Positions 2,612-32,576 of a stretch of DNA of 36,045 nt are shown here, piece after piece. Within the stretch, counting starts at the first letter, position 1, and every line of letters begins with the position of its first letter. The notes beneath the pieces are model-generated. The model was given only the letters and a program-made list of their open reading frames with translations, had not been told where the DNA came from and made no database searches. Both the position numbers and the translations under genes were made by a program. This stretch comes from Pseudobdellovibrionaceae bacterium (GTDB lineage: Bacteria; Bdellovibrionota; Bdellovibrionia; Bdellovibrionales; Bdellovibrionaceae), in assembly GCA_019637895.1 (NCBI GenBank), contig JAHBUU010000011.1, positions 1 through 36,045 of the forward strand. The letters are read 5' to 3'.

Positions 2612-4392
2612 AAAATCCAACCACCCTCGCCGCTTGTTGGTTGGAGATGAAAAACCGCTCCTCCAACGGAGTTGCCATTCGCGTGCGACGCTCGTCCGGT
2701 TGGAGCGACATCAGCTGGCAAACCTATTCACGGGATATTGAAAAAGCGGCCGCAGGCCTGTTATCCCTGGGCGTTTCTCCGAAAGACCGCGTCGCTCTCA
2801 TCTCGAATACCCGATACGAGTGGGGCTGTGCGGACTTCGCCAATTTTGCCATTGGGGCGGCGACCGTCCCGATCTATCCCAATAGCACCCCTGAAGACAT
2901 CGTTTATATGTTGAACGAATCAGAAGCCGCGGTCCTGATTGCCGAAGGTCGCCTGACTCTGAAGATCTGGCGCAAGATCCGCGAGCAATGCCCACGGATC
3001 AAAACCGTCATCTGTTTTGAAACCGATGACCCTGCGGATCCGGCCTTGATCACTTGGGATTCCCTCCTTGAAAAGGGAAAAAAACTTCTGACGGACACAC
3101 CCCGAAAAGTCGAAGAACTTGCAGAGAAAGTCAGACCCGAGGACATGGCCACCATGTTGTTCACGTCGGGAACCACGGGAAAACCCAAAGGCGTCGTCAT
3201 CGCTCACGAACAGGGAGTTTCCGAAGTCACCGAGGCTTTCCCTTATGTCGGAGCCGAAGAAAGCGATATCAGTCTGTGCTTTCTGCCCTTTTCACACATC
3301 CTGGGGCGCATCGAGCTATGGGGACATGCCTTCATCGGCTTTACGATGGCCTATGCTGAAAGCATCGAAAAGGTTCGCTCGAATCTGGCCGAAATCAGAC
3401 CGACCATCATGGTTTCAGTCCCTCGCATTTTCGAAAAGGTTTATGCGGGAATTCTGACCCAGATGGAAAATCAGCCACTCAAAAAGAAGCTTTTCAAATG
3501 GGCAGTCGGGATCGGTCGACAAGTCACCGAACTGCGTTTGACCAAACAGATCATTCCTCTGCCTTTGCTGGCCCAGTATGAACTGGCTCGCCGTCTGGTT
3601 CTGGAAAAGGTCCGCGAGGCATTCGGAGGACGTTTGCGTTTCGCGATCAGCGGGGGCGCCCCGATCAGTCGGGAAATTTCAACGTTCTTCCATGCGAGCG
3701 GCGTTCTCATCCTTGAAGGTTACGGCCTGACGGAAACCACGGCCGCCGTTGCCGTCAATACGCCTTATAATTATCACTTCGGCTCGGTTGGAAAACCTTT
3801 CGGGGATGTTCAGATCCGCATCGCCGAAGACGGCGAAGTGCTCGTCAAAAGCAAAAAAATCATGCAGGGGTACTACAAGAATCCCGAAGCCACCGCCGAA
3901 GCCGTCAAAGACGGCTGGTTTCACACCGGCGACATCGGCGAGATTCTTCCCGGCGGAGATCTGAAAATCACAGACCGCAAAAAAGACCTGATCAAAACTG
4001 CGGGCGGTAAATATGTCGCCCCACAAAGGGTCGAAGGTCTTTTGCAGCTTCATCCGTTCGTCGCCCAATCGGTGATTCACGGTGACAACAAAAAATTCAT
4101 CGTCGCTCTTCTTGCCCCCGATCGCGCGGCCCTGGAAAGCGATGCGAAAGCCCGTGGCGTGACCTACCAGCACTGGACGGATCTGCTCGAAGATCCACAG
4201 ATCCAATCATCCTTCCGAGCAGCCGTCGCCGAGGCGAACTCCCAACTGGCCAGTTGGGAATCAATCAAACGATACGCCGTTCTACCGCAAGAGTTTACGG
4301 TCGAAGCGGGCGAACTGACGCCTTCGCTGAAGGTCAGACGAAAAGCGATGGAAAAGAAATTCGCGGATCTTTTGGAGTCCTTGTATGTCTGA
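2608..4392 (+). CDS. long-chain fatty acid-CoA ligase (AMP-forming)
   Basis: This enzyme activates fatty acids to acyl-AMP and then acyl-CoA for beta-oxidation or lipid synthesis. The 594-aa product has the ANL-superfamily signatures in order: the P-loop FTSGTTGKPKG (about residues 184-194), GYGLTETTA (about 371-379), WFHTGDIGE (about 437-445), and DRKKDLIKTAGGKYVAP containing the A8 hinge and the acyl-chain Lys region. Its length and sequence style match FadD15-like long-chain ligases of bacteria (about 600 aa) rather than E. coli FadD. Its ATG lies inside the stop of the kinase gene (ATGA overlap), so translation is probably coupled. Its own end overlaps the next start by 8 nt. Substrate chain length cannot be read from the sequence. 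Confidence 0.93.
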   Translation: MKNPTTLAACWLEMKNRSSNGVAIRVRRSSGWSDISWQTYSRDIEKAAAGLLSLGVSPKDRVALISNTRYEWGCADFANFAIGAATVPIYPNSTPEDIVYMLNESEAAVLIAEGRLTLKIWRKIREQCPRIKTVICFETDDPADPALITWDSLLEKGKKLLTDTPRKVEELAEKVRPEDMATMLFTSGTTGKPKGVVIAHEQGVSEVTEAFPYVGAEESDISLCFLPFSHILGRIELWGHAFIGFTMAYAESIEKVRSNLAEIRPTIMVSVPRIFEKVYAGILTQMENQPLKKKLFKWAVGIGRQVTELRLTKQIIPLPLLAQYELARRLVLEKVREAFGGRLRFAISGGAPISREISTFFHASGVLILEGYGLTETTAAVAVNTPYNYHFGSVGKPFGDVQIRIAEDGEVLVKSKKIMQGYYKNPEATAEAVKDGWFHTGDIGEILPGGDLKITDRKKDLIKTAGGKYVAPQRVEGLLQLHPFVAQSVIHGDNKKFIVALLAPDRAALESDAKARGVTYQHWTDLLEDPQIQSSFRAAVAEANSQLASWESIKRYAVLPQEFTVEAGELTPSLKVRRKAMEKKFADLLESLYV

Positions 4393-4897
4393 GCAGGTCA
4401 TCTCTCGGTCGAAACTTTCGCTTTTTGCGGCCCTTTGCCTGGCCCTGGTGACGCTGTTTCAAAACTGCGCCCCTCAGGCCCACAGCCAAACGGAAAACGA
4501 GGGCCCCAGATCCCATCCGCTCAAGGCGATCGAGATGACGAAACCCTCGCTGGCCGGTGAGTCTGTGGTCTTTGAAGGGCTCCATCAGATCGTTGTCCTG
4601 GAAAACGAAAAAATCGAAATCAAAACCGCCTGTGGACCCAATCGCGAAGCCCGTATTCGCAATTTCGATTCGGATGAAAGCATCCTGGATGCCCAAGGAG
4701 AAGTCGCCATCCGAATCGACAACGTCCGCATCAAGCCCGACGATTTTTACCATGTGATGGGCTGCGCTAGTCCCGCCATGGATGAAACCGACGAACTCTT
4801 GTCACAGATCGTTCGCGTGGAACGGGCCAGCCGTTCGGGCTCGACGATCTATTTCACCACGGACGAGGGCCTCGTCCTGACCTTCGAACTTCAGTAG
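4385..4897 (+). CDS. putative small lipoprotein, function unknown
   Basis: I do not recognise a family for this 170-aa protein. A basic N-terminus (residues 1-10) is followed by a hydrophobic stretch ending LVTLFQNC at Cys28. The last residues before Cys do not fit the classical lipobox, since Gln and Asn replace small residues. FQNC endings nevertheless recall secreted proteins of Bdellovibrio-like bacteria, which is recollection and not a search. The mature part is acidic and looks beta-rich, with two further cysteines (CGPN and GCAS segments) that could form a disulfide. The gene overlaps the acyl-CoA ligase by 8 nt, and its TAG directly abuts the ATG of the metallopeptidase gene. It is therefore almost certainly translated from the same message. 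Confidence 0.75.
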   Translation: MSEQVISRSKLSLFAALCLALVTLFQNCAPQAHSQTENEGPRSHPLKAIEMTKPSLAGESVVFEGLHQIVVLENEKIEIKTACGPNREARIRNFDSDESILDAQGEVAIRIDNVRIKPDDFYHVMGCASPAMDETDELLSQIVRVERASRSGSTIYFTTDEGLVLTFELQ

Positions 4898-9265: not shown

Positions 9266-11311
9266 ATGACAAATCTCTCTGAAAATCCCCTTTTGAAGCC
9301 CTTCACAAACAAAGACGGCGCCATGCCTTTCGACCAAGTCAAAGTGGAGCATTATCTGCCCGCTTTGGAAGAAAGCATTCGCCAAGCCCGCGAACGCATC
9401 AACGCGATCAAGACGAATTCGGCCGCTCCGGATTTCGCAAATACAATCACGGCCCTCGAAGCCGCTAGCGAACAAGTCGATCGCGTCGCTGGGATCTACG
9501 GCAATCTCGAAGTCGCTCATGCCGACGAGGCCTTGCAGGCTCTGGCAAAAGATCTCTATCCGAAACTGTCGGCCTTTTCCTCGGACGTTTCCCTGGATGC
9601 CGAGATCTTCGCCAAAGTGAAAGCCGTTCATGAAAAAAGCGGCTCTCTCAAGCTCGACATCGAAGAGGCGAAGCTCCTCGAAAAAACTTATCTCAGCTTT
9701 GCTCGCAACGGAGCTCTGCTGGACGAGAAAGCCAAAGAACGTCTGCGCGCCATCGACCAAGAGCTGTCGGTTCTTGGACCTAAATTCTCTGAAAACGTTT
9801 TGAAGGCGACCAATGCCTTTGAAATGTGGATCACGGACAAAGCAGATCTCGACGGCCTGCCTGAAGGGGCTATCGAAGCCGCAGCGGCCGCCGCCGATGC
9901 CAAAGGCAAACAAGGCCAATGGCTGTTCAACCTGCAGTTCCCAAGCTATCTGCCTTTCCTGACCTACGCGAAGAACCGCGCTCTGCGGGAAAAAATGTGG
10001 CGGGCCTTCGCTTCTCGCTCCGTCAAAGGCGAGTTCGACAACAGCGAAACCATTCTCAAGATCGTGCAGCTTCGTCACGAACGCGCGCATCTCCTCGGGT
10101 TCAAAACCCACGCCGACTACGTGCTGGCCGAACGCATGGCCAAAGACCCCAAGACGGTCACGAACTTCCTCGACGGCCTATTGAGCGCCTCCAAAACGGC
10201 AGCGAAACGCGACCTCGATGAAGTCACCGCCTTCGCCAAAGAGACCGACGGTGTGACCGACATCAAGCCTTGGGACTTCGGTTTTTATTCCGAAAAGCTG
10301 AAAGAAAAAAAATACGCTTTCAACGAAGAGGACCTGCGCCCTTACTTCCAACTGGAAAAAGTCGTCGACGGCGTTTTTGAACACGCTCGCCGCTTGTACG
10401 GTCTGACGTTCAAAGAAACCAAGGAAATCCCGGTCTATCACCCCGAAGTGAAGACCTACGAAATCCATGACGAGACCAGTGGCGAATACGTCGGCCTGTT
10501 CTACACGGACTTCTTCCCACGCGAGACCAAAAAAGGCGGCGCTTGGATGACGAACTTCCGCGAGCAAGGCATGTGGGATGGCAAGGTCCGTCGCCCTCAC
10601 GTCTCCATCGTCTGCAACTTCACCAAGCCGACTCCGACCAAGCCGAGCCTTCTCAGCTATGACGAAGTTCGCACCTTGTTCCACGAATTCGGTCACGCTC
10701 TTCACGGGATGCTCTCGCAGTGCAGACACCGCAGCCTGGCCGGAACCAGCGTCTACTGGGACTTCGTCGAACTCCCTTCGCAGATCATGGAAAACTGGGT
10801 CGGCGAAAAAGAAGGCCTGGACCTGTTTGCCAAGCACTATCAGACCAATGCGCCGATCCCAGAAGACCTGGTGAAAAAACTGAAGCGCGCACAGCAGTTC
10901 CAAGCGGGCTGGGCTTCGCTCCGTCAGTTGCAGTTCGGTTACCTGGACATGAACTGGCACTCGGCCGATCCTTCAAAGATCACCGACGTCGATGCTTTCG
11001 AAAACCAAGCGACATCCGAGACCCGGTTGCTCGAACGGATCGCGGGCACCAACTCCAGCAGCGCTTTCAGCCACATCTTTGCAGGCGGCTACTCGGCAGG
11101 GTACTACTCCTACAAATGGGCGGAAGTTTTGGACGCGGACGCATTCGAGTTCTTCAAGGAAAAAGGTCTCTTCGACAAAGAGGTCGCTCGCAGCTTCAAG
11201 GAAAACATCCTGAGCCGCGGAGGAACCGAACACCCGATGGATCTTTACAAAAAGTTCCGCGGACGTGAGCCGGATCCAAAAGCCCTCCTTCGCCGGGACG
11301 GTTTGATCTGA
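9266..11311 (+). CDS. M3 family oligopeptidase (oligopeptidase A/Dcp-like)
   Basis: This is a cytosolic zinc metallopeptidase that degrades short peptides. The roughly 681-aa product has the usual M3 length. It carries HEFGHALH with zinc ligands His473 and His477 and catalytic Glu474, and the third-ligand Glu in the FVELPSQIMENW helix about 28 residues on. The C-terminal SYKWAEVLDADAF segment resembles the SY.Y...AD.F substrate-binding region of the family. No signal peptide is present. The start chosen is ATG 9266; a TTG at 9248 is also in frame, and neither has a strong ribosome site. The stop overlaps the nadK start by 1 nt, so nadK and recN probably share its transcript. I cannot decide between the oligopeptidase A and peptidyl-dipeptidase Dcp subtypes. 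Confidence 0.93.
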   Translation: MTNLSENPLLKPFTNKDGAMPFDQVKVEHYLPALEESIRQARERINAIKTNSAAPDFANTITALEAASEQVDRVAGIYGNLEVAHADEALQALAKDLYPKLSAFSSDVSLDAEIFAKVKAVHEKSGSLKLDIEEAKLLEKTYLSFARNGALLDEKAKERLRAIDQELSVLGPKFSENVLKATNAFEMWITDKADLDGLPEGAIEAAAAAADAKGKQGQWLFNLQFPSYLPFLTYAKNRALREKMWRAFASRSVKGEFDNSETILKIVQLRHERAHLLGFKTHADYVLAERMAKDPKTVTNFLDGLLSASKTAAKRDLDEVTAFAKETDGVTDIKPWDFGFYSEKLKEKKYAFNEEDLRPYFQLEKVVDGVFEHARRLYGLTFKETKEIPVYHPEVKTYEIHDETSGEYVGLFYTDFFPRETKKGGAWMTNFREQGMWDGKVRRPHVSIVCNFTKPTPTKPSLLSYDEVRTLFHEFGHALHGMLSQCRHRSLAGTSVYWDFVELPSQIMENWVGEKEGLDLFAKHYQTNAPIPEDLVKKLKRAQQFQAGWASLRQLQFGYLDMNWHSADPSKITDVDAFENQATSETRLLERIAGTNSSSAFSHIFAGGYSAGYYSYKWAEVLDADAFEFFKEKGLFDKEVARSFKENILSRGGTEHPMDLYKKFRGREPDPKALLRRDGLI

Positions 11312-20582: not shown

Positions 20583-21323
20583 TCAAAGCTGCTGCCAAAT
20601 CAACTGCCCGTCTCTCAAAATGAGAACTTCCTGGGTTTCAAACCAGCTCCCCAGGTTGATGGCTCGGATCTGGCGGCCCTTTCTTCCGAAGCTCCAATCA
20701 TCCTTCACGTGCATATGTCCACTGATGACGGCATCAAAAGGATCCTCATCCCAAACCAGCTCGGCATGGCGACGAAGCATTTTGCGGATTCGGGATTCCC
20801 TTTCCGCACGCTCGGCGGAGCTGCGTTTCCGGCTGTGCTTTGACCACCGATTCCCCATGGAATCAAGAAAATGCCCCGGCAGAAGATGAGCCAGTCGTTC
20901 CATCACCGGATGCCTCAAGAAGGCGCGCAATCGCAGATAGGAAATGTCGTCCCGATTGATTTCATCCCCATGTTCGCAGCGGATTCGAAGTCCTCCGACC
21001 TGGAACAAGCCGGGTCGAGTGCGAACATCCGCGCCTAAATGCTTTTCCCAATAAACCGCGAGATGCATGTCATGGTTGCCCTCGAAGTAAACGATCCGAC
21101 TTCCCCGCTCGACCAGTCGTTTCAAGCTGGAAAGCAGAGGCTCGTATCTGTCCAAAAAAACCCGATGGTCGGAAATCCACAGATCAAAAATATCGCCGAG
21201 CAGGAAAATCATCGGCGGAGTTTCAGGTCGCTCCTCCAAAGAAGCCAAAAAGCGCAACAGGGTTTTCCCGTTGCGCTCTTCGAGCGACTTCAGATGAAGG
21301 TCAGAGAGGAAGACGGCGTCCAC
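20583..21323 (-). CDS. lpxH: UDP-2,3-diacylglucosamine diphosphatase (LpxH-like metallophosphoesterase)
   Basis: LpxH cleaves UDP-2,3-diacylglucosamine to lipid X and UMP at the inner-membrane surface in lipid A synthesis. The 246-aa product has all calcineurin-like metal motifs: SDLHL (Asp8, His10), GDIFD (43-47), GNHD (82-85), EHGD (117-120) and GHMH (202-205). The basic insert about residues 150-185 fits the LpxH cap that grips the lipid substrate. The start is GTG at 21321-21323, with AAGGAG supplied by the last codons of ftsZ, and only 1 nt separates the two genes. A related YbbF-type or other metallophosphoesterase role cannot be fully excluded. It is the last gene of the leftward division cluster. 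Confidence 0.85.
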   Translation of the reverse strand: MDAVFLSDLHLKSLEERNGKTLLRFLASLEERPETPPMIFLLGDIFDLWISDHRVFLDRYEPLLSSLKRLVERGSRIVYFEGNHDMHLAVYWEKHLGADVRTRPGLFQVGGLRIRCEHGDEINRDDISYLRLRAFLRHPVMERLAHLLPGHFLDSMGNRWSKHSRKRSSAERAERESRIRKMLRRHAELVWDEDPFDAVISGHMHVKDDWSFGRKGRQIRAINLGSWFETQEVLILRDGQLIWQQL

Positions 21324-24758: not shown

Positions 24759-25277
24759 TTACAGATTCAGCGGCAAGCTCAGGCTCAACATCCAAGTTTT
24801 ACGATCGGCATCGATGTTGACGGAGTTTCCACCGTTTTTGAATTTGTCGTAGCTCAGGTTGATCATGTCGAAGTTAATGCTCAGAAACGGCAAGCCGGTG
24901 TAACCGATTCCGACTTTGGTTCCATTTCCAGTCATTTTCCCGCTCTTCTCCATTTCGGTCGAGAAGAAGTAGGTTCCGCTGACTTTGATGAGAATCGGGA
25001 AAGTGAACTGGGCGAAAACGCCGAGATCCTGATTCGTCCAAGTCACCGAAGGCGAGGAATCCTGTTTCAGGGAACCACGCATGTAATCCAAGCCCGCCGC
25101 GAAACCGAGGCTCGAGTAACCAAGCTTCAATCCCAGGTTCGTTCCAGCGAGATCATTGCTAGTGGCGCCACCTTCGATCTTGCCCGTCTCGTAGCCGATG
25201 GATGGCTCGAGGTAAATGCTGGCAAACGCAGAAGAGGACATCAAAACGACGGCAAAAAGGGCACTTAAAAATTTCAT
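24759..25277 (-). CDS. small outer-membrane beta-barrel protein
   Basis: The start chosen is ATG 25275-25277 with GGAG 6 nt upstream. The open frame to 25382 adds 35 residues without a ribosome site and would bury the signal peptide. The 172-aa product has a signal peptide (FLSALFAVVLMSSSAFA) and amphipathic strands (LGLKLGYSSLGFAAGLDY, VFAQFTFPILIKVSGTY, KVGIGYTG, WMLSLSLPL). It ends in NL rather than an aromatic residue, a weaker barrel signal. An eight-stranded OmpW/OmpX-size barrel is likely. It sits 108 nt behind ftsQ and ends at a strong terminator, interrupting the usual ftsQ-ftsA junction. No specific function is visible. Confidence 0.8.
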   Translation of the reverse strand: MKFLSALFAVVLMSSSAFASIYLEPSIGYETGKIEGGATSNDLAGTNLGLKLGYSSLGFAAGLDYMRGSLKQDSSPSVTWTNQDLGVFAQFTFPILIKVSGTYFFSTEMEKSGKMTGNGTKVGIGYTGLPFLSINFDMINLSYDKFKNGGNSVNIDADRKTWMLSLSLPLNL

Positions 25278-25385
25278 ACTGACTCCATTCGTGAATGATT
25301 CGAGAACAAGATAAAGATCCCGAGGAAACTTTGAACTGGCAATGGGCGGTTGAGCCTCTTGAAGCAAACTGGACCTCGTCATTTC

Positions 25386-26132
25386 CTAAAAGGCCTGCGT
25401 GCTGCCTTCGAGCTTGACCAAAACTTTCTTGGATAAATTGGCGTCGAGACTTTTCGCATGGATGCCGCGGTTGTTCAGATACTCAAGCACCTGACCCAGG
25501 CGCGCCGATTTCAAGGCAATGGCGTCCTCGCCGACCTTCACTTCGACCGCACTCTTCACCATGGTCATCGAAAAGCCATCTTTCTGATTCCACCGCACCT
25601 CCGAGATGGTGGATCTCGAAAAAGCTCCACGCTCGGGAATCTCGTTCAAGACTTTGACGGCTTTTTTCCGGAAGTTTTCTTCCTCGAAAACCTTCCCCTC
25701 GAAAACGACGACGTCAGGCGCAAGCTTCGCTTCGATCGGTGCCAGAAATTTTCCCTCTTCGATCACGGGAATAAGGGCCTTCTGCCCCGAAAAGTAAAGA
25801 GCCTTGACCTCTTGAGGACGGATCTTGACGACCACCGACCGTGGCCACTCTCTCGACAAGGAATGATCTGCAATCCACGGCTGTGCCCCGAGGGTTTTCG
25901 AAAGATCACGCATCTCAAGACTCCAAAGGGATTGCCCTCTGTACATTTCAAGAGACTTGTCCAAATCGTCCACCAGCGGCTTCAAATGCAAGGACCGGTT
26001 GGGGGAATCTTCGAGCACGATATGAATTTGATCGAGATCGAAGAACCCCTTCCGGTCCAAATGGTACAGGAATCCTGCCAGCGCGCCCGGAAGAAAAATG
26101 AATGTGACGAAAAGCCTCAGCAGGATCTTCAT
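25386..26132 (-). CDS. ftsQ: cell division protein FtsQ/DivIB family
   Basis: FtsQ is a bitopic inner-membrane protein that joins the FtsB-FtsL complex to the divisome. The 248-aa product has a short cytoplasmic start, one membrane helix (residues about 5-22), and a POTRA-like domain. That domain carries the GQSLWSLEMRDL and QPWIADHSLSREWPRSVVVKIRPQEVKALY segments, which are diagnostic of FtsQ. A beta domain follows to the end. Sequence outside these motifs is divergent, as usual for the family. The gene follows the ABC exporter by only 12 nt, so the two are probably co-transcribed with murB. The beta-barrel gene downstream lies 108 nt away. Confidence 0.92.
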   Translation of the reverse strand: MKILLRLFVTFIFLPGALAGFLYHLDRKGFFDLDQIHIVLEDSPNRSLHLKPLVDDLDKSLEMYRGQSLWSLEMRDLSKTLGAQPWIADHSLSREWPRSVVVKIRPQEVKALYFSGQKALIPVIEEGKFLAPIEAKLAPDVVVFEGKVFEEENFRKKAVKVLNEIPERGAFSRSTISEVRWNQKDGFSMTMVKSAVEVKVGEDAIALKSARLGQVLEYLNNRGIHAKSLDANLSKKVLVKLEGSTQAF

Positions 26133-26144
26133 GCTTTCAGCTTA

Positions 26145-29100
26145 TCAAGTCTCTTCTTCACGAACAATCTCGGCCAGGACCCGTCGAGCCTCATCCGAGC
26201 GCATTTCACTCTTCACTCGACCAAAGGCGAGATCCACCACCTTGTCACAATCCGCGACCGTCCCCAATCGGTGAGCGATGATCAGCAAGGTCACACCCTG
26301 CAGATTCTCGCGAATCACCCGCTGAAGAATGGCATCGGTTTCGACATCCACACTCGCCGTCGCCTCGTCCAAGACGATGATTCTCGCTTTCGTGAGCAGC
26401 GCCCTGGCCAGACACAACAGTTGCCGCTGTCCCTGGCTCAGGTTCAATCCGCTCTCAAGAACCGGAGCATCCAAGCCCCCATCCAAGGACTTCACAAAAC
26501 TCAGCAACGAGGCGTTTCTGAGCGCCTCTTCGAGCTCTTCTTCCGAGTACTCGTTGTACCGATCCATATTGGACCGGATCGTGCCTAAGAACAGCGTCGG
26601 ATCCTGCGGAATGATCGCCAGCGAGCGACGCAAGCGCTCCAATGGAACCGAGGCGATGTCTTCGCCGTCGATCAAAATCCGACCCGATTCGAGTTCGACA
26701 AAGCGGAAGATGCACTGAAAGAGCGTGCTCTTCCCCGACCCCGTCCGTCCAATCAGTCCGACCTTTTCACCGGCTCCGACCCGGAAAGAAACGTCATGCA
26801 AAACTCTCGGCAAATGAGGCGCATACCGAGCCTGAACTTTCTCGAAGACAATCTCGCCTCGGGAAGGCCAGGACTCGGAAAGTTCTTGCGGTCTCTCGAT
26901 GCGAATATCCGTTTCCGCCGGAAGGTTCGTGTAGAACTTCATCCGTTCAACCGACGTCATCCGCGACTCGATATCCGCGAAGATCCGGATTCCCCAATTC
27001 AGGTAAGCCCAGAAGTTCAGCATGTAGATCGTCAGGACCCCCGCAATTCCGGCACCGAGATGGCCTGACTTCGCTCCGAGAACGATCGCCGTCGAGGTCG
27101 CCGCCGCGATCAGACCGCCAACCAATGGAACCCTCACCGAAAACCAGCGGTTCAAAATCACGTGGTTGTAAAACATCGTCTGACTGTGAGCGAGCTTCGA
27201 ATAGAAACTCTCGAGGAACCAATCTTCGCTGCGGAAGCCGCGAATCACGGGCAGGCCGACCAAGGTTTCCTTGAAGTGCGCATATCTCGGAGACCTTGCA
27301 ATCGAATCAAGGCGCTTCACTTCACGCGCAGGCATCCGATAGTCCCTTTGAATGACATAGTACAAAATCAGAATCGGACCGATCAGTGCGAAAGAAATCG
27401 GCACCAACGTCAGAATCAGGATCAAGCACAAAATCACTTCGATGAAGATATGAATCGCCTCGCTGAAGCTCCTCTGCAGATAGATATCCACCGACTCGAC
27501 ATCCCGTGAGAACCTCTGCAGAATCCGGCCGACCGGAGTCGAATCAAAAAACCGCAAGGGTGCCTTTAAGAGAGCCGCCAACATCCGCTCTTGCATGAGC
27601 TTCCCGGCACCAATCCCTCTTTCCAGCCACCAAAGGCTATTCATCAAGTTAAACAAAAGCGCGGCCAAACCGATCAACCCGTAAACGGCAATCGCGTGGA
27701 GAGGATTATTGAGAACATCTCCCCAGCCCTTCTCGATCAACCAGGCTGTCCATCCACCGCCTTCGCCCGACTGCTGAAAGCTGGAAATCATTCCCAGCCA
27801 CCATCGCTGAAGCAGCGGCAAGGCCATCACGAGAATGGCTCCACCCAAAAGGCCCGCCAATCTCCAGGATCGCCAGCGTCCGTCCCCGCCCAAGGATTTG
27901 AAGTAATCCAGATAGACGGATCCCTTGACCGCTCCCACTTCACGATCTTCATCTTCGGTGATGCGGTCCAAGGCGCCAGAATTTGCTTCGGCTTTCGTTG
28001 TCGCCTCTTCCGTTTTCTTTTCTGTCAACGCGGCTTGCTCGGCCTTTCCCTGAGCCAGGGAGTGTTCACGCAAGAAAGACCGGAATCTGGCGGATACCTT
28101 TTTCACTTCCTCAAGGGTCCCCTGTGCGACCACCCGACCGTTTTCCATAAAAAGAATCCGGTCGAAATTCGCCAAATGTTCCAAACGGTGAGTTGCCACC
28201 ACACGAGTGACGTCTTTCCACTCCCCGAACAAGAGCCGCTCGCTCAGATGACCTTCGGTTTCGACATCGACCGCCGAAAGAGGATCATCCAAAAAGACAA
28301 TCTGCGGGCGCTGCAAAACCGCCCGGGCAAGACTCACCCTCTGCTTCTGTCCGCCGGACAGGTTCACCCCTTTTTCACCGATCTCGGTCTGCATCCCTGC
28401 GGGCAGCAAAGCCAGATCTTTTTCAAAATCGGCCAGATACAAGGCCCTGCCAATCTCCTGCTCTTGTCGAACACCCTCACCGAACAAAAGATTCTCACGC
28501 AGGGTTCCGTTGACGATGAAAGCCTCTTGAGGAACGTAGGCCGTCCGTGGCTCGACCAAAAAGCCCTTGGAATCAAAGAAGCGCCGGTGCGATCTGTCTG
28601 CGGCGATCTCTCCGATCAACGTCATCAACAAAGTGGACTTTCCGCATCCCACAGGACCAACGATCGCAACACTTTCTCCGGCACCAATGGAAACTTTCAA
28701 ACCGCCAAAGGTCTCCAAAGCTTCCGTTTGCAAAGCGACCGCTTTTTCATCGCTGCCTGGTGCTTCGCCGATCTCATTCAAAACGTCTGATTTCAGAAAA
28801 TCAGAAATCCGACGCGCACTCACGAAGGCGTTGGTCGCCCGGGACAGAAGCCACGACAATCCGCCGAAAGGTTCTTCCAAGAGACCGAACAGGGCGACCA
28901 AGGTGAACACCAGGGCGGGATCAAGAGAGAATCCTCTCAAGACATGGATCCCCAGCGCCACGAACAAAACGATCGAAGAAACCGCGACGTAAGCGACCCC
29001 CGCAAAGGATTCCGAGCGAGCCATGCGACGACGCGCATGGAGTTCACGCCGACGGACATCTTCGACTTCTTTCGCCACGCTTTTTTCCCAGGCGAAATAC

Positions 29101-29897
29101 TTCACGACCCGAATGGCGTTGAGGATTTGACCCATCAGCGTCACCCGGTGGTCGCGCTCCTTCATCATGATCTCATCAAGATGGCTGAAACGCTTTGCGA
29201 GCAAGCGGGTTGCCGGAGCGAGACAGACCAACAGGATGAGCGGCAGAACCGCAGACCAACCGATGTAATGGAAAAGCATCCCGATCACACTCACGACCGT
29301 CAGGGTCGTAAAGATCATATCGGCAAAAACCATCGAAAAATCAGCCAGGGTTTCGGAATCCGAGCCCATATGATTCACGACGTCTCCGACCGGAATCTTC
29401 ATTCGTGCCTGCTGGGTCATTCGCAGCGAATGACGAAACAGGCGTTCGTTGATGACATTCACGATCAGTTGATACTGCTTCAACGCTTGAAAGAAAAAGT
29501 GCTGAAACGAAACACCACGAACGATGGCACTTAATCCCAGCAACAGAGCACAGATCAGCGCAAAACGAAAATTAGCCGAATCATCGAAGCCAGCGGAAAT
29601 GGCCCCGACGAATCGATTGACCAAAAGAGGCTGCATCAGACCGACCACGACGGCGATCGCGTAGGCGCCATAGGCTTTCGTGAGACCTCGGCGACAGACC
29701 TTCAACAGGCTCCATGCCAGTTCTTTTCCGGACTCCCAACGAATCTCACCGGTATTCAGAGGAGAATGCCGCGGATTCAGCCAATCCGGCATCGGCAAGA
29801 GATCCTTTTCAAAGAGGATTTTTCTTTTTCCTTCTTTGACCAAAATGCTTCCGTCGCTGAAAAAGAGCGCACGGAAAAATGCTTTGAACGACTTCAT
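26145..29897 (-). CDS. full-length ABCC/MRP-like ABC exporter (TMD-NBD-TMD-NBD)
   Basis: This 1250-aa single polypeptide holds two complete exporter halves. Numbering is from an alternative TTG at 29909. TMD1 spans about 80-370 and NBD1 about 400-610, with Walker A GPVGCGKS 418-425, signature LSGGQKQ 517-523 and FLDDPLSAVD. An acidic Lys/Glu linker covers 620-660, TMD2 about 680-985 and NBD2 about 1015-1245, with Walker A GRTGSGKS, LSQGQRQLLCLARALL and LDEATASVD. Asp instead of Glu after the NBD1 Walker B, and the NBD2 signature, are marks of the ABCC/MRP subfamily, which is usually eukaryotic. NBD1 should therefore hydrolyse ATP poorly. ATG 29895-29897 is chosen for GGGA 7 nt upstream. The gene lies between murB (39 nt) and ftsQ (12 nt). 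The substrate is unknown; a lipid or wall precursor is possible but inferred. Confidence 0.93.
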   Translation of the reverse strand: MKSFKAFFRALFFSDGSILVKEGKRKILFEKDLLPMPDWLNPRHSPLNTGEIRWESGKELAWSLLKVCRRGLTKAYGAYAIAVVVGLMQPLLVNRFVGAISAGFDDSANFRFALICALLLGLSAIVRGVSFQHFFFQALKQYQLIVNVINERLFRHSLRMTQQARMKIPVGDVVNHMGSDSETLADFSMVFADMIFTTLTVVSVIGMLFHYIGWSAVLPLILLVCLAPATRLLAKRFSHLDEIMMKERDHRVTLMGQILNAIRVVKYFAWEKSVAKEVEDVRRRELHARRRMARSESFAGVAYVAVSSIVLFVALGIHVLRGFSLDPALVFTLVALFGLLEEPFGGLSWLLSRATNAFVSARRISDFLKSDVLNEIGEAPGSDEKAVALQTEALETFGGLKVSIGAGESVAIVGPVGCGKSTLLMTLIGEIAADRSHRRFFDSKGFLVEPRTAYVPQEAFIVNGTLRENLLFGEGVRQEQEIGRALYLADFEKDLALLPAGMQTEIGEKGVNLSGGQKQRVSLARAVLQRPQIVFLDDPLSAVDVETEGHLSERLLFGEWKDVTRVVATHRLEHLANFDRILFMENGRVVAQGTLEEVKKVSARFRSFLREHSLAQGKAEQAALTEKKTEEATTKAEANSGALDRITEDEDREVGAVKGSVYLDYFKSLGGDGRWRSWRLAGLLGGAILVMALPLLQRWWLGMISSFQQSGEGGGWTAWLIEKGWGDVLNNPLHAIAVYGLIGLAALLFNLMNSLWWLERGIGAGKLMQERMLAALLKAPLRFFDSTPVGRILQRFSRDVESVDIYLQRSFSEAIHIFIEVILCLILILTLVPISFALIGPILILYYVIQRDYRMPAREVKRLDSIARSPRYAHFKETLVGLPVIRGFRSEDWFLESFYSKLAHSQTMFYNHVILNRWFSVRVPLVGGLIAAATSTAIVLGAKSGHLGAGIAGVLTIYMLNFWAYLNWGIRIFADIESRMTSVERMKFYTNLPAETDIRIERPQELSESWPSRGEIVFEKVQARYAPHLPRVLHDVSFRVGAGEKVGLIGRTGSGKSTLFQCIFRFVELESGRILIDGEDIASVPLERLRRSLAIIPQDPTLFLGTIRSNMDRYNEYSEEELEEALRNASLLSFVKSLDGGLDAPVLESGLNLSQGQRQLLCLARALLTKARIIVLDEATASVDVETDAILQRVIRENLQGVTLLIIAHRLGTVADCDKVVDLAFGRVKSEMRSDEARRVLAEIVREEET

Positions 29898-29936
29898 GAA
29901 AATTCCCAACTTGACATTGCAATCAATTTTTTTAAC

Positions 29937-30887
29937 TTAGAACAGGCCGAGCTTGATGACTTCGGTGTGCAGATCAACGCCCTTTTGAGCTTTCACCGTT
30001 TTCTGAACGTGTTCAATCACGCTCAAAATGTCGCTGGCTTTCGCTCCTCCGACATTGACGATGAAATTCGCATGCTTCAATGACACCTGTGCACCGCCGA
30101 CCTGGTAACCCTTGAGTCCGCAGCCGTCGATCAACTGAGCCGATTTATGCCCCGGCGGGTTCACGAAAACGGAACCGCAGCTCGGGAGATCCAAAGGCTG
30201 CTTTGAAAGACGAACCTTGTTGGCATCACGCACCTTCTGCAGAATATCTGGCTCCGGCTTGTTTTCCCAAATGAGGCCCGCCTTGACGACAACGCCAGGC
30301 TGCCAGCCCGTCGAATGACGATAGCTCCATTGAATGTCGTCTTTTTTCAATCGCACTCGTCGAAGCTGATCGCCCTCCACACGAAGGACTTCCACCCACT
30401 CGATGATTTCGTGGAACTCTCGCGGCCGAAAGCTTTCAGCCACGCCCGCATTCATGACGACACCGCCACCAACGTCACCAGGGATGCCCGCCAGGAAAAG
30501 AGCCGGCGCCAGTTTCTGCTTCAAGAAAATCTTGAGAAGTTCCGACTTGCCGGTTCCACTCAAGCACTCCAAGCGAACAAAATCCGGCGACTCCTGAACT
30601 TGAACGCCGCTCAAACGGCGCAAGCAAATCACCAATCCCTTGATCCCCTGATCGGAAACCAAAACGTTCGTACCGCCGCTCAGCACAGTCCAGGGAATAT
30701 TTTCGGTCAGCGCAAACCGTAGCGCCTCTTCCAAGTCGGCTTCGGTTTCAGGCAGACAAAAATATTCCGCCTCCCCGCCGACGAGCCAGGATGTGTAATC
30801 CTTCAAAGAGACATTGTGCCGAATCTGCAACATTCGCTCATTCTCGGGGAGGTTTCTCCCCGAGGCAATCAGTTCCAACATATTCAC
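29937..30887 (-). CDS. murB: UDP-N-acetylenolpyruvoylglucosamine reductase
   Basis: This FAD enzyme reduces enolpyruvyl-UDP-GlcNAc to UDP-MurNAc in the cytosol. The product shows the FAD-binding SGGTNVLVSD segment, AGIPGDVGGGVVMNAGV, the YRHSTGW motif, PSCGSVFVNP containing the proton-donating Ser, and the C-terminal Glu in HTEV. The absence of long extra loops suggests a type II MurB. The start is uncertain: GTG 30885-30887, ATG 30879-30881 and ATG 30831-30833 are all in frame, and typical MurB N-termini begin near the last. A 9-bp hairpin (30843-30851 with 30856-30864) lies between these starts, and so could either be coding or cover the true ribosome site. It follows the 101-aa gene by 17 nt and precedes the ABC exporter. 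Confidence 0.95.
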   Translation of the reverse strand: MNMLELIASGRNLPENERMLQIRHNVSLKDYTSWLVGGEAEYFCLPETEADLEEALRFALTENIPWTVLSGGTNVLVSDQGIKGLVICLRRLSGVQVQESPDFVRLECLSGTGKSELLKIFLKQKLAPALFLAGIPGDVGGGVVMNAGVAESFRPREFHEIIEWVEVLRVEGDQLRRVRLKKDDIQWSYRHSTGWQPGVVVKAGLIWENKPEPDILQKVRDANKVRLSKQPLDLPSCGSVFVNPPGHKSAQLIDGCGLKGYQVGGAQVSLKHANFIVNVGGAKASDILSVIEHVQKTVKAQKGVDLHTEVIKLGLF

Positions 30888-30904: not shown

Positions 30905-31210
30905 TTACCGACGCATCGGGGGCGCCAGATATTCGAGCTGCTGAAGCACGGGGAATTCCTCGAAGAACTCTCGCGCCTCCTCATTTGGGCCGACTTTCAC
31001 CACTAATCGAGAATGTGATGTCATCAGCCACCAAAGCCCCCTTCCGCTCTTGCCCGCCTTAACGACGGAACCGAGGAGGAAGTGGAAAACATCAGTGGCC
31101 CGAAACATCCCATTTTTATCAGTGGAGACCCTCACGAGGGCCAAAGGCCTCTCGAGCTCAGGGTTTTGCCATTGCCTGTTTTCACGCAACAACGCTTTCG
31201 TGTTTTTCAC
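30905..31210 (-). CDS. 101-aa protein of unknown function
   Basis: This is a 101-aa soluble, basic protein starting at GTG 31208-31210 with an excellent ribosome site (GAGGAGG, 5 nt spacer). It has no signal peptide or membrane segment. A middle strand-rich part (ATDVFHFLLGSVVKAG, GLWWLMTSHSRLVVKVG) is followed by an acidic helix (NEEAREFFEEF) and a basic end. I recognise no family. It is only 17 nt upstream of murB and seems to be the first gene of the murB-ABC exporter-ftsQ unit. A short CCGCC/GGCGG hairpin sits just before the ribosome site and may regulate it. The start and coupling argue that it is real. Confidence 0.7.
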   Translation of the reverse strand: MKNTKALLRENRQWQNPELERPLALVRVSTDKNGMFRATDVFHFLLGSVVKAGKSGRGLWWLMTSHSRLVVKVGPNEEAREFFEEFPVLQQLEYLAPPMRR

Positions 31211-31734: not shown

Positions 31735-32514
31735 TCAGATTTTACACCGCGGACGATTCTTGGCCGCACGATACTCGGGCATTACTTTCGGGATGTACTT
31801 TCCCAAAGTTCCGATCCGCGTTCCATGAGAAGGATGCGTCGACATGAACTCAGGTGGCGCCCCTTGTGATGCCTGCGCCATGTTCTCCCAGAGCCGAACG
31901 GATTCTTCGGGATTGAAACCAGCTCTCGCCATGTAATCGAGTCCCATCACATCGGCCTCGGTTTCTTGCGCCCGACTATTTGGAAGAGTGATTCCAAATT
32001 GCGCCCCCAAGCCCAAGGCCGCCATCAACAACTGATAATCACGCCCATCTTTCTGTGCCAGCACACCACCGACAGCCAGAACCCCCGTCGTCAAAAGCTG
32101 CTCGGAAACCCGAGCCCTGGAGTGCTCGGCCAAAACGTGGGCCACCTCATGACCCAAAACCGCAGCCAGCTGATCTTGGGTTTTCGCGACTTTCAACAGG
32201 CCAGTGTGAACACCGATGTGACCTCCGGGAACCGCGAAAGCATTCGCCGAGTCCTCCTTAAAGACCACCACTTCCCACTTTCGTTTTTCGGGCAAGACGG
32301 CCGTGATGGAGTCGGCCACGCATTTCACATAACCATTGATCGCTGCATCCTTTTCGATCGGCATTTTCTTTTTAAGGTCCTCGAAGGATTGATCCCCCAG
32401 AGAGTCCATCTGGGATTCCGAGATCAAAACCAACTGCCGCCGCCCTGTCGGTGACGTCTGACAGGCGCTCAGCGCGACAAAACAAGCGATCGCAAGAAAA
32501 TTCAAACGGCTCAT
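31735..32514 (-). CDS. M48 family metallopeptidase lipoprotein
   Basis: This is an outer-membrane or periplasmic zinc protease resembling LoiP/BepA-type M48 proteins that act in envelope quality control. It has a lipobox LSAC with Cys18, and HEVAH with ligands His122 and His126 and catalytic Glu123. A downstream ETEAD segment (about 184-188) supplies the third ligand, followed by the typical STHPSHGTRI segment. Length is 259 aa from ATG 32512-32514, chosen because AGGAGG stands 5 nt upstream; an adjacent ATG at 32515-32517 is too close to it. The gene follows murC by 62 nt and ends at a terminator, so it probably rides on the wall-synthesis transcript. There are no TPR repeats, unlike BepA. 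Confidence 0.9.
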   Translation of the reverse strand: MSRLNFLAIACFVALSACQTSPTGRRQLVLISESQMDSLGDQSFEDLKKKMPIEKDAAINGYVKCVADSITAVLPEKRKWEVVVFKEDSANAFAVPGGHIGVHTGLLKVAKTQDQLAAVLGHEVAHVLAEHSRARVSEQLLTTGVLAVGGVLAQKDGRDYQLLMAALGLGAQFGITLPNSRAQETEADVMGLDYMARAGFNPEESVRLWENMAQASQGAPPEFMSTHPSHGTRIGTLGKYIPKVMPEYRAAKNRPRCKI

Positions 32515-32576
32515 CATGGCCTCCTAGGACGGAAGCCAAACTATAAAGAAAATGAATCGGAAAGGTCAAATAGTGC

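Follow-up and report, generated by a model that had tools for sequence, protein, structure and literature searches.

The window, i.e. the whole stretch of 36,045 nucleotides analysed here, contains on its minus strand an open reading frame (26145..29909 when counted from TTG) for a full-length ABCC-type exporter (Table 1). Residue numbers of this protein (418, 921, 972, 975, 1054) refer to its 1254-aa version. Translation of 26145-29897 on the plus strand displays internal stops. A sequence-only reading of the same DNA had described a 1250-aa TMD-NBD-TMD-NBD protein at this place; reading frame, domain order and coordinates were found as described, and the strand, which had not been given, is minus (29897 to 26145). 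Domain search of the 1250 aa displays two ABC_membrane and two ABC_tran stretches, that is, TMD-NBD-TMD-NBD in one chain. All NBD1 and NBD2 motifs named beforehand are present in the translation: NBD1 carries LSGGQKQ and NBD2 carries LSQGQRQLLCLARALL, next to the Walker motifs listed in Table 1. The degenerate Asp in the Walker B motif of NBD1, together with a canonical DEATA in NBD2, is common to the exporter and its relatives. The distance from Walker A to the signature amounts to 99 residues in NBD1 versus 103 in NBD2; most relatives display about 90-101 versus 103, with one exception (L062).

Table 1. Coordinates of the features discussed in the text (window numbering unless another locus is named).
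Feature	Position	Strand	Details
Full-length ABCC-type exporter gene, TMD1-NBD1-TMD2-NBD2	26145..29897	-	1250 aa from ATG at 29897
Alternative start of the ABCC gene	TTG at 29909	-	1254 aa
N-terminal lasso/L0-like segment (FF..D.SILVKEGKRKILFEKDLLPMP), without TMD0	29775..29897	-	aligned to human ABCC4 N-terminus
NBD1 Walker A GPVGCGKST	28632..28658	-	residue 418
NBD1 Walker B VFLDDPLSAVD	28266..28298	-	catalytic Glu replaced by Asp, degenerate site 1
Inter-half linker TEDEDREVGAVKGSVYLDY	27900..27959	-	eukaryotic ABCC counterpart: ABCC4 SEENRSEGKVGFQAYKNY; MRP1 VYWDYMK
Arg921 in NRW	27147..27149	-	MRP1 Arg1197 equivalent by alignment, TM16 pocket
Trp972 to Arg975 in LNWGIR	26985..26996	-	MRP1 Trp1246 and Arg1249 equivalents, TM17 pocket
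NBD2 Walker A GRTGSGKST	26724..26750	-	residue 1054
NBD2 signature LSQGQ to Walker B IIVLDEATASVD	26346..26441	-	catalytic Glu retained
murB, upstream neighbour	29937..30887	-	NF010480, 290.9 bits, above cut-off
ftsQ, downstream neighbour	25386..26132	-	FtsQ_DivIB_C, POTRA_1
M48 (BepA/LoiP-like) lipoprotein protease	31735-32517	-	between murC and murB; absent from G001 cluster
101-aa frame, no Pfam match	30905-31210	-	between murC and murB; absent from G001 cluster
Small secreted barrel-like protein	24759-25382	-	between ftsQ and ftsA; absent from G001 cluster
Palindrome copies flanking murB	L052 about 10087-10123 and 11038-11074		G001:C1:1282086 and 1283037
Split ABCC-like pair, window's genome (G000), contig C72	L167:797-2668 and 2637-4580	-	adjacent, N-like then C-like

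Both neighbours lie on the same strand as the ABCC gene, with 39 nt between the end of murB and the ATG and 12 nt between the stop codon and the start of ftsQ. Domain and family models and the coordinates bear out the identities and distances that the sequence-only reading had assigned. No promoter-like or terminator-like matches were detected in either gap, and judged by this spacing the gene may be read together with murB and ftsQ. Its GC3 of 0.639 compares with 0.59-0.66 in the dcw neighbours, and its composition and codon use are native.

The genome of the same genus available for comparison (G001; the genus-level comparison comprises two genomes) displays the order murG-murC-murB-ftsQ-ftsA-ftsZ with no ABCC gene inside, and none was found anywhere in G001 at the search threshold. 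Relative to G001, the dcw cluster of the window is opened at three junctions (for the further genes see Table 1). Small unrelated genes are found between murB and ftsQ in other relatives as well. The view that this junction should be compact thus fails as a general rule, and these extra genes, together with the three opened junctions, suggest that it is permissive. In G001, murB lies between two copies of a near-perfect 37-bp palindrome (TTCCCTTTTTGTCGCGCGCCGCGCGACAAAAAGGGAA), of which this genome has four in total; the window's genome has none. Beside ftsZ, the window encodes a calcineurin-like phosphoesterase (20583-21323, minus strand) which by eye is LpxH-like (lipid A pathway).

Its tight placement might indicate that the exporter belongs functionally to the division cluster, moving a wall precursor, a lipid or a signal and being expressed with the septation genes, and the sequence-only reading had suggested that it serves lipid traffic for the wall or for division. 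The shared strand and the short gaps, both free of promoter-like or terminator-like matches, speak for this idea, and in this one species the gene might be co-regulated with the division genes. However, the order murB-ABCC-ftsQ occurs in one assembly only, an outcome that the sequence-only reading had itself named as a refutation. The gene is missing from the same-genus genome, and in none of the other carriers examined do dcw genes lie beside it. Since the order is confined to this assembly and extra genes occupy other dcw junctions both here (the M48 protease, the barrel-like protein) and in relatives, the proposed role is unsupported, and we regard it as very unlikely. A gene order unique to a draft of 235 contigs might also reflect a chimera, in which misassembly joined the ABCC gene to the dcw contig. 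Yet the two junctions are found within a single 36 kb contig, with intact frames on either side, GC and codon use are native, and the protein groups with family members from the same phylum, so that a chimera appears highly improbable. The dcw position of the ABCC gene looks incidental, a matter of chance.

Regarding family membership, the best NCBIfam model for the exporter is TIGR00957 (MRP) with 701 bits, which is below the equivalog cut-off of 1470, so that the threshold for MRP proper is not reached, and there is no TMD0; the best half-transporter model, MsbA (TIGR02203), scores 416. The CydC cut-off is passed (349 vs 329 bits), but this score is summed over two stretches and far below that of TIGR00957, and an identity as CydDC was rejected. 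A PDB search with the full-length protein returns ABCC proteins throughout the best 60 rows, the match to AtABCC2 starting at residue 11. Searched alone, the N-half aligns best with ABCC N-halves and the C-half with ABCC C-halves. NBD1 scores 141-150 bits against ABCC NBD1 versus 78-88 bits against ABCC NBD2, and all 49 distinct PDB sequences matching the TM15-17 segment at E<=1e-8 are ABCC. Alignment displays a lasso before TMD1 and an inter-half linker common to the exporter and human ABCC4. The pairing of DDPLSA in NBD1 with DEATA in NBD2 has been given for ABCC (PMC4649718). Equivalents of Arg921 and Arg975 are nearly invariant among relatives, and alignment finds both arginines absent in the split pair described below and in another half-transporter. 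Both arginines (MRP1 R1197, R1249) are required for organic anion transport by ABCC proteins, and Lys332 and His335 of MRP1 are not general ABCC features (PMC8267652). Judged by its sequence, the exporter is a genuine ABCC of a short, MRP-like form without TMD0, a transporter type familiar from animals, plants and fungi. The statement that a full-length ABCC, unusual in a bacterium, lies at this locus is in agreement with family models, PDB matches and trees.

Comparison of the exporter halves with the half-transporters of the window's own genome revealed a split ABCC-like pair on contig C72. The product of its first gene (647 aa) has its best PDB matches among ABCC N-halves, and that of the second (623 aa) among ABCC C-halves. 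The N gene encodes LLLDDCLSAVD and LSGGQ, the C gene LSLGERQ and DEATSAVD. In an NBD tree, the two subunits are the nearest outgroups of ABCC NBD1 and NBD2, respectively. Such pairs are adjacent, often overlapping and in N-C order, and in nearly all genomes sampled they have ABCC-like motifs, the N subunit LLDDxLSAVD and LSGGQ, the C subunit LSxGE and DEATSxVD. Of the 369 genomes of the phylum, 88 (35 genera) encode the split N subunit, among them G001 and the window's genome; it occurs more often than the fused gene.

A search for fused relatives found them, at 33-57% identity, in 41 of the 144 genomes of the class and in 56 of the 369 (17 of 182 genera) of the phylum, which is probably Bdellovibrionota. 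Among 398 genomes of Pseudomonadota, sampled without a positive control, neither fused nor split forms were detected, and no plasmid-borne copies were found at E<=1e-100. A single-sequence scan of named GTDB contigs matched only one distant half-transporter. The IMG/VR scan returned ABC proteins at 25-36% identity over most matches, with frames mostly of half size and one of 1261 aa (L140), one NBD of which was compared. Neighbourhoods of the ABCC gene are kept only within genera. In one genus (about 12 genomes) the gene immediately follows FliW and a series of conserved genes on the same strand; the distance to fliW is 15-20 nt in nearly all of these genomes (L059, L063, L092-L095, L097-L101), which is a second case of an ABCC gene tightly behind an unrelated gene. 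In another genus it adjoins a PAS histidine kinase, and elsewhere different genes. One genome carries a second, highly divergent fused paralogue (L103, G147:C1:1766396-1769992; 33% identity), which is without the TM16 arginine and forms the first branch among bacterial fused forms. In two drafts (G074:C133 and G075:C86/C136) the fused ABCC appears broken into two frames or contigs, perhaps by draft errors or contig ends.

Trees were computed from TMD and NBD of both halves, with eukaryotes represented by three sequences (ABCC1, ABCC4, AtABCC2). The human ABCC4 sequence was checked against PDB chain 8bjf_A (identical at about residues 1-957; 3004 bits, ungapped, 1-1325). In one tree, N and C halves root each other; its N side has the order (split N, (eukaryote N, fused N)), and its C side (split C, (eukaryote C, fused C)). 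In the tree of concatenated halves, support is 98/94 for fused bacteria, 100/99 for fused bacteria plus eukaryotes and 100/100 for the split pair; with human ABCC4 added, one clade unites the eukaryotes (100/99) and a second the fused bacteria (95/95), and in both of these trees the long split and outgroup branches meet (program warning). The branching order is the same in the tree of mutually rooted N and C halves. In an NBD-only tree human NBD1 falls inside the bacterial clade, a placement which is gone with longer alignments. Topologies that force the fused bacterial proteins to group with the split ones are rejected (AU p 0.0008 and 0.0067), and so is one with ABCC4 outside a clade of bacteria, ABCC1 and AtABCC2 (AU p 0.0004). 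A position of the most divergent bacterial copy outside a group of eukaryotes and the remaining copies is only marginally rejected (AU p 0.045). Because the split pair falls outside for both halves and independent fusion is rejected, a single fusion before the bacterial and eukaryotic fused lines parted appears to be the simplest and best-supported reading.

These trees bear on two other accounts. A recent, lineage-specific fusion of two ordinary MsbA-like half-transporters, with ABCC likeness by convergence, could draw on the fold common to bacterial half-transporters and on the 416 bits of the MsbA model. Half by half, however, the best matches are the corresponding ABCC halves, the inter-half linker is homologous to the ABCC linker, and the bacterial fused N and C join eukaryotic N and C; with independent fusion rejected as above, we give this account next to no credence. 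Whether the halves would group with MsbA-like half-transporters had been named as a decisive point by the sequence-only reading, and both group with eukaryotic ABCC halves. The other account concerns origin and is compatible with the functional explanation given below: the bacterial ABCC may have been acquired laterally from an early eukaryote, in which case the fusion would be eukaryotic. The patchy bacterial distribution (17/182 genera) and the presence of ABCC in 79 of 79 eukaryotic genomes (PMC4649718) fit such a transfer, but the bacterial fused ABCCs are not nested in the three sampled eukaryotic sequences, a nested position that leaves ABCC4 outside is rejected (AU p 0.0004), and the split pair, outgroup to both, resides in the same bacterial phylum. 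We consider this transfer plausible, at less than an even chance. Rather tentatively, we suggest as a possible scenario that the ABCC architecture is bacterial: an adjacent two-gene heterodimer of N-like and C-like subunits, of the kind that persists in the phylum and in the window's genome, would have been fused once, gained the basic pocket and been passed to the eukaryotic stem. Eukaryotic MRP, CFTR and SUR would then descend from a full-length ABCC of bacteria, the remaining descendants of which are found in this phylum. According to one proposal, a heterofusion of two divergent half-transporters had given rise to ABCC by the time of the last eukaryotic common ancestor, and prokaryotic half-structures branch at the base of each half; the same work reports some full-structure proteins in prokaryotes and cites Igarashi et al. 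(2004) on bacterial clusters with a relation to ABCB and ABCC (PMC4649718). The literature searched, coverage of which was partial, yielded no paper that describes a full-length ABCC from bacteria, alone or with a split counterpart.

As for function, we hold it to be likely that the protein is a single-chain, ATP-driven inner-membrane ABCC exporter, the product of an optional gene of the phylum that landed by chance at the permissive murB-ftsQ junction. Judged by its family, its most likely work would be ATP-driven export of organic anions. Substrates, most likely amphipathic organic anions, would bind from the cytoplasm in a cavity lined at TM16/17 by the two conserved arginines. ATP held at site 1, which is degenerate through the Walker B Asp of NBD1, may keep the NBDs together, and hydrolysis at site 2 would drive the cycle, with the substrate presumably released to the periplasm; a transport cycle with a degenerate site has been described (PMC7756269). 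Since equivalents of MRP1 K332/H335 are not evident in the exporter sequence, MRP1-like binding of glutathione conjugates is not implied.

The evolutionary setting of the bacterial ABCC is more interesting than the division-cluster claim from which the analysis departed. Within one bacterial phylum, the two-gene pair coexists with a fused form that is the sister group of the eukaryotic ABCCs sampled. Judging from these closest relatives, bacteria may still hold assembly steps of the ABCC family. Bacterial fused and split forms make the origin of the MRP1/CFTR/SUR1 family directly testable, and the proteins are usable for structure and mechanism work.

Compared to known systems, the exporter shares domain order, lasso and linker with eukaryotic ABCC/MRP exporters (ABCC4, likewise without TMD0, MRP1, YCF1, AtABCC2). 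DDPLSAVD in NBD1, LSxGQRQL and DEATA in NBD2, the TM16/17 arginines and the half-to-half correspondence are alike. It differs from them in its bacterial host, its separate sister clade in the tree, the lack of TMD0 and the THRL of its NBD1, versus THSM in MRP1 and ABCC2 and THQL in ABCC4. With the bacterial half-transporters MsbA, SmdAB, CydDC and TM287/288 it has the type I exporter fold in common, and TM287/288-type heterodimers likewise have a degenerate site (PMC7756269). However, these proteins are half-size, half-transporter models score far lower, and their tree position is outside (TM287/288 not being in the trees). The split pair, in contrast to the fused ABCC, consists of two overlapping genes, has no pocket arginines and falls outside the clade of fused and eukaryotic proteins.
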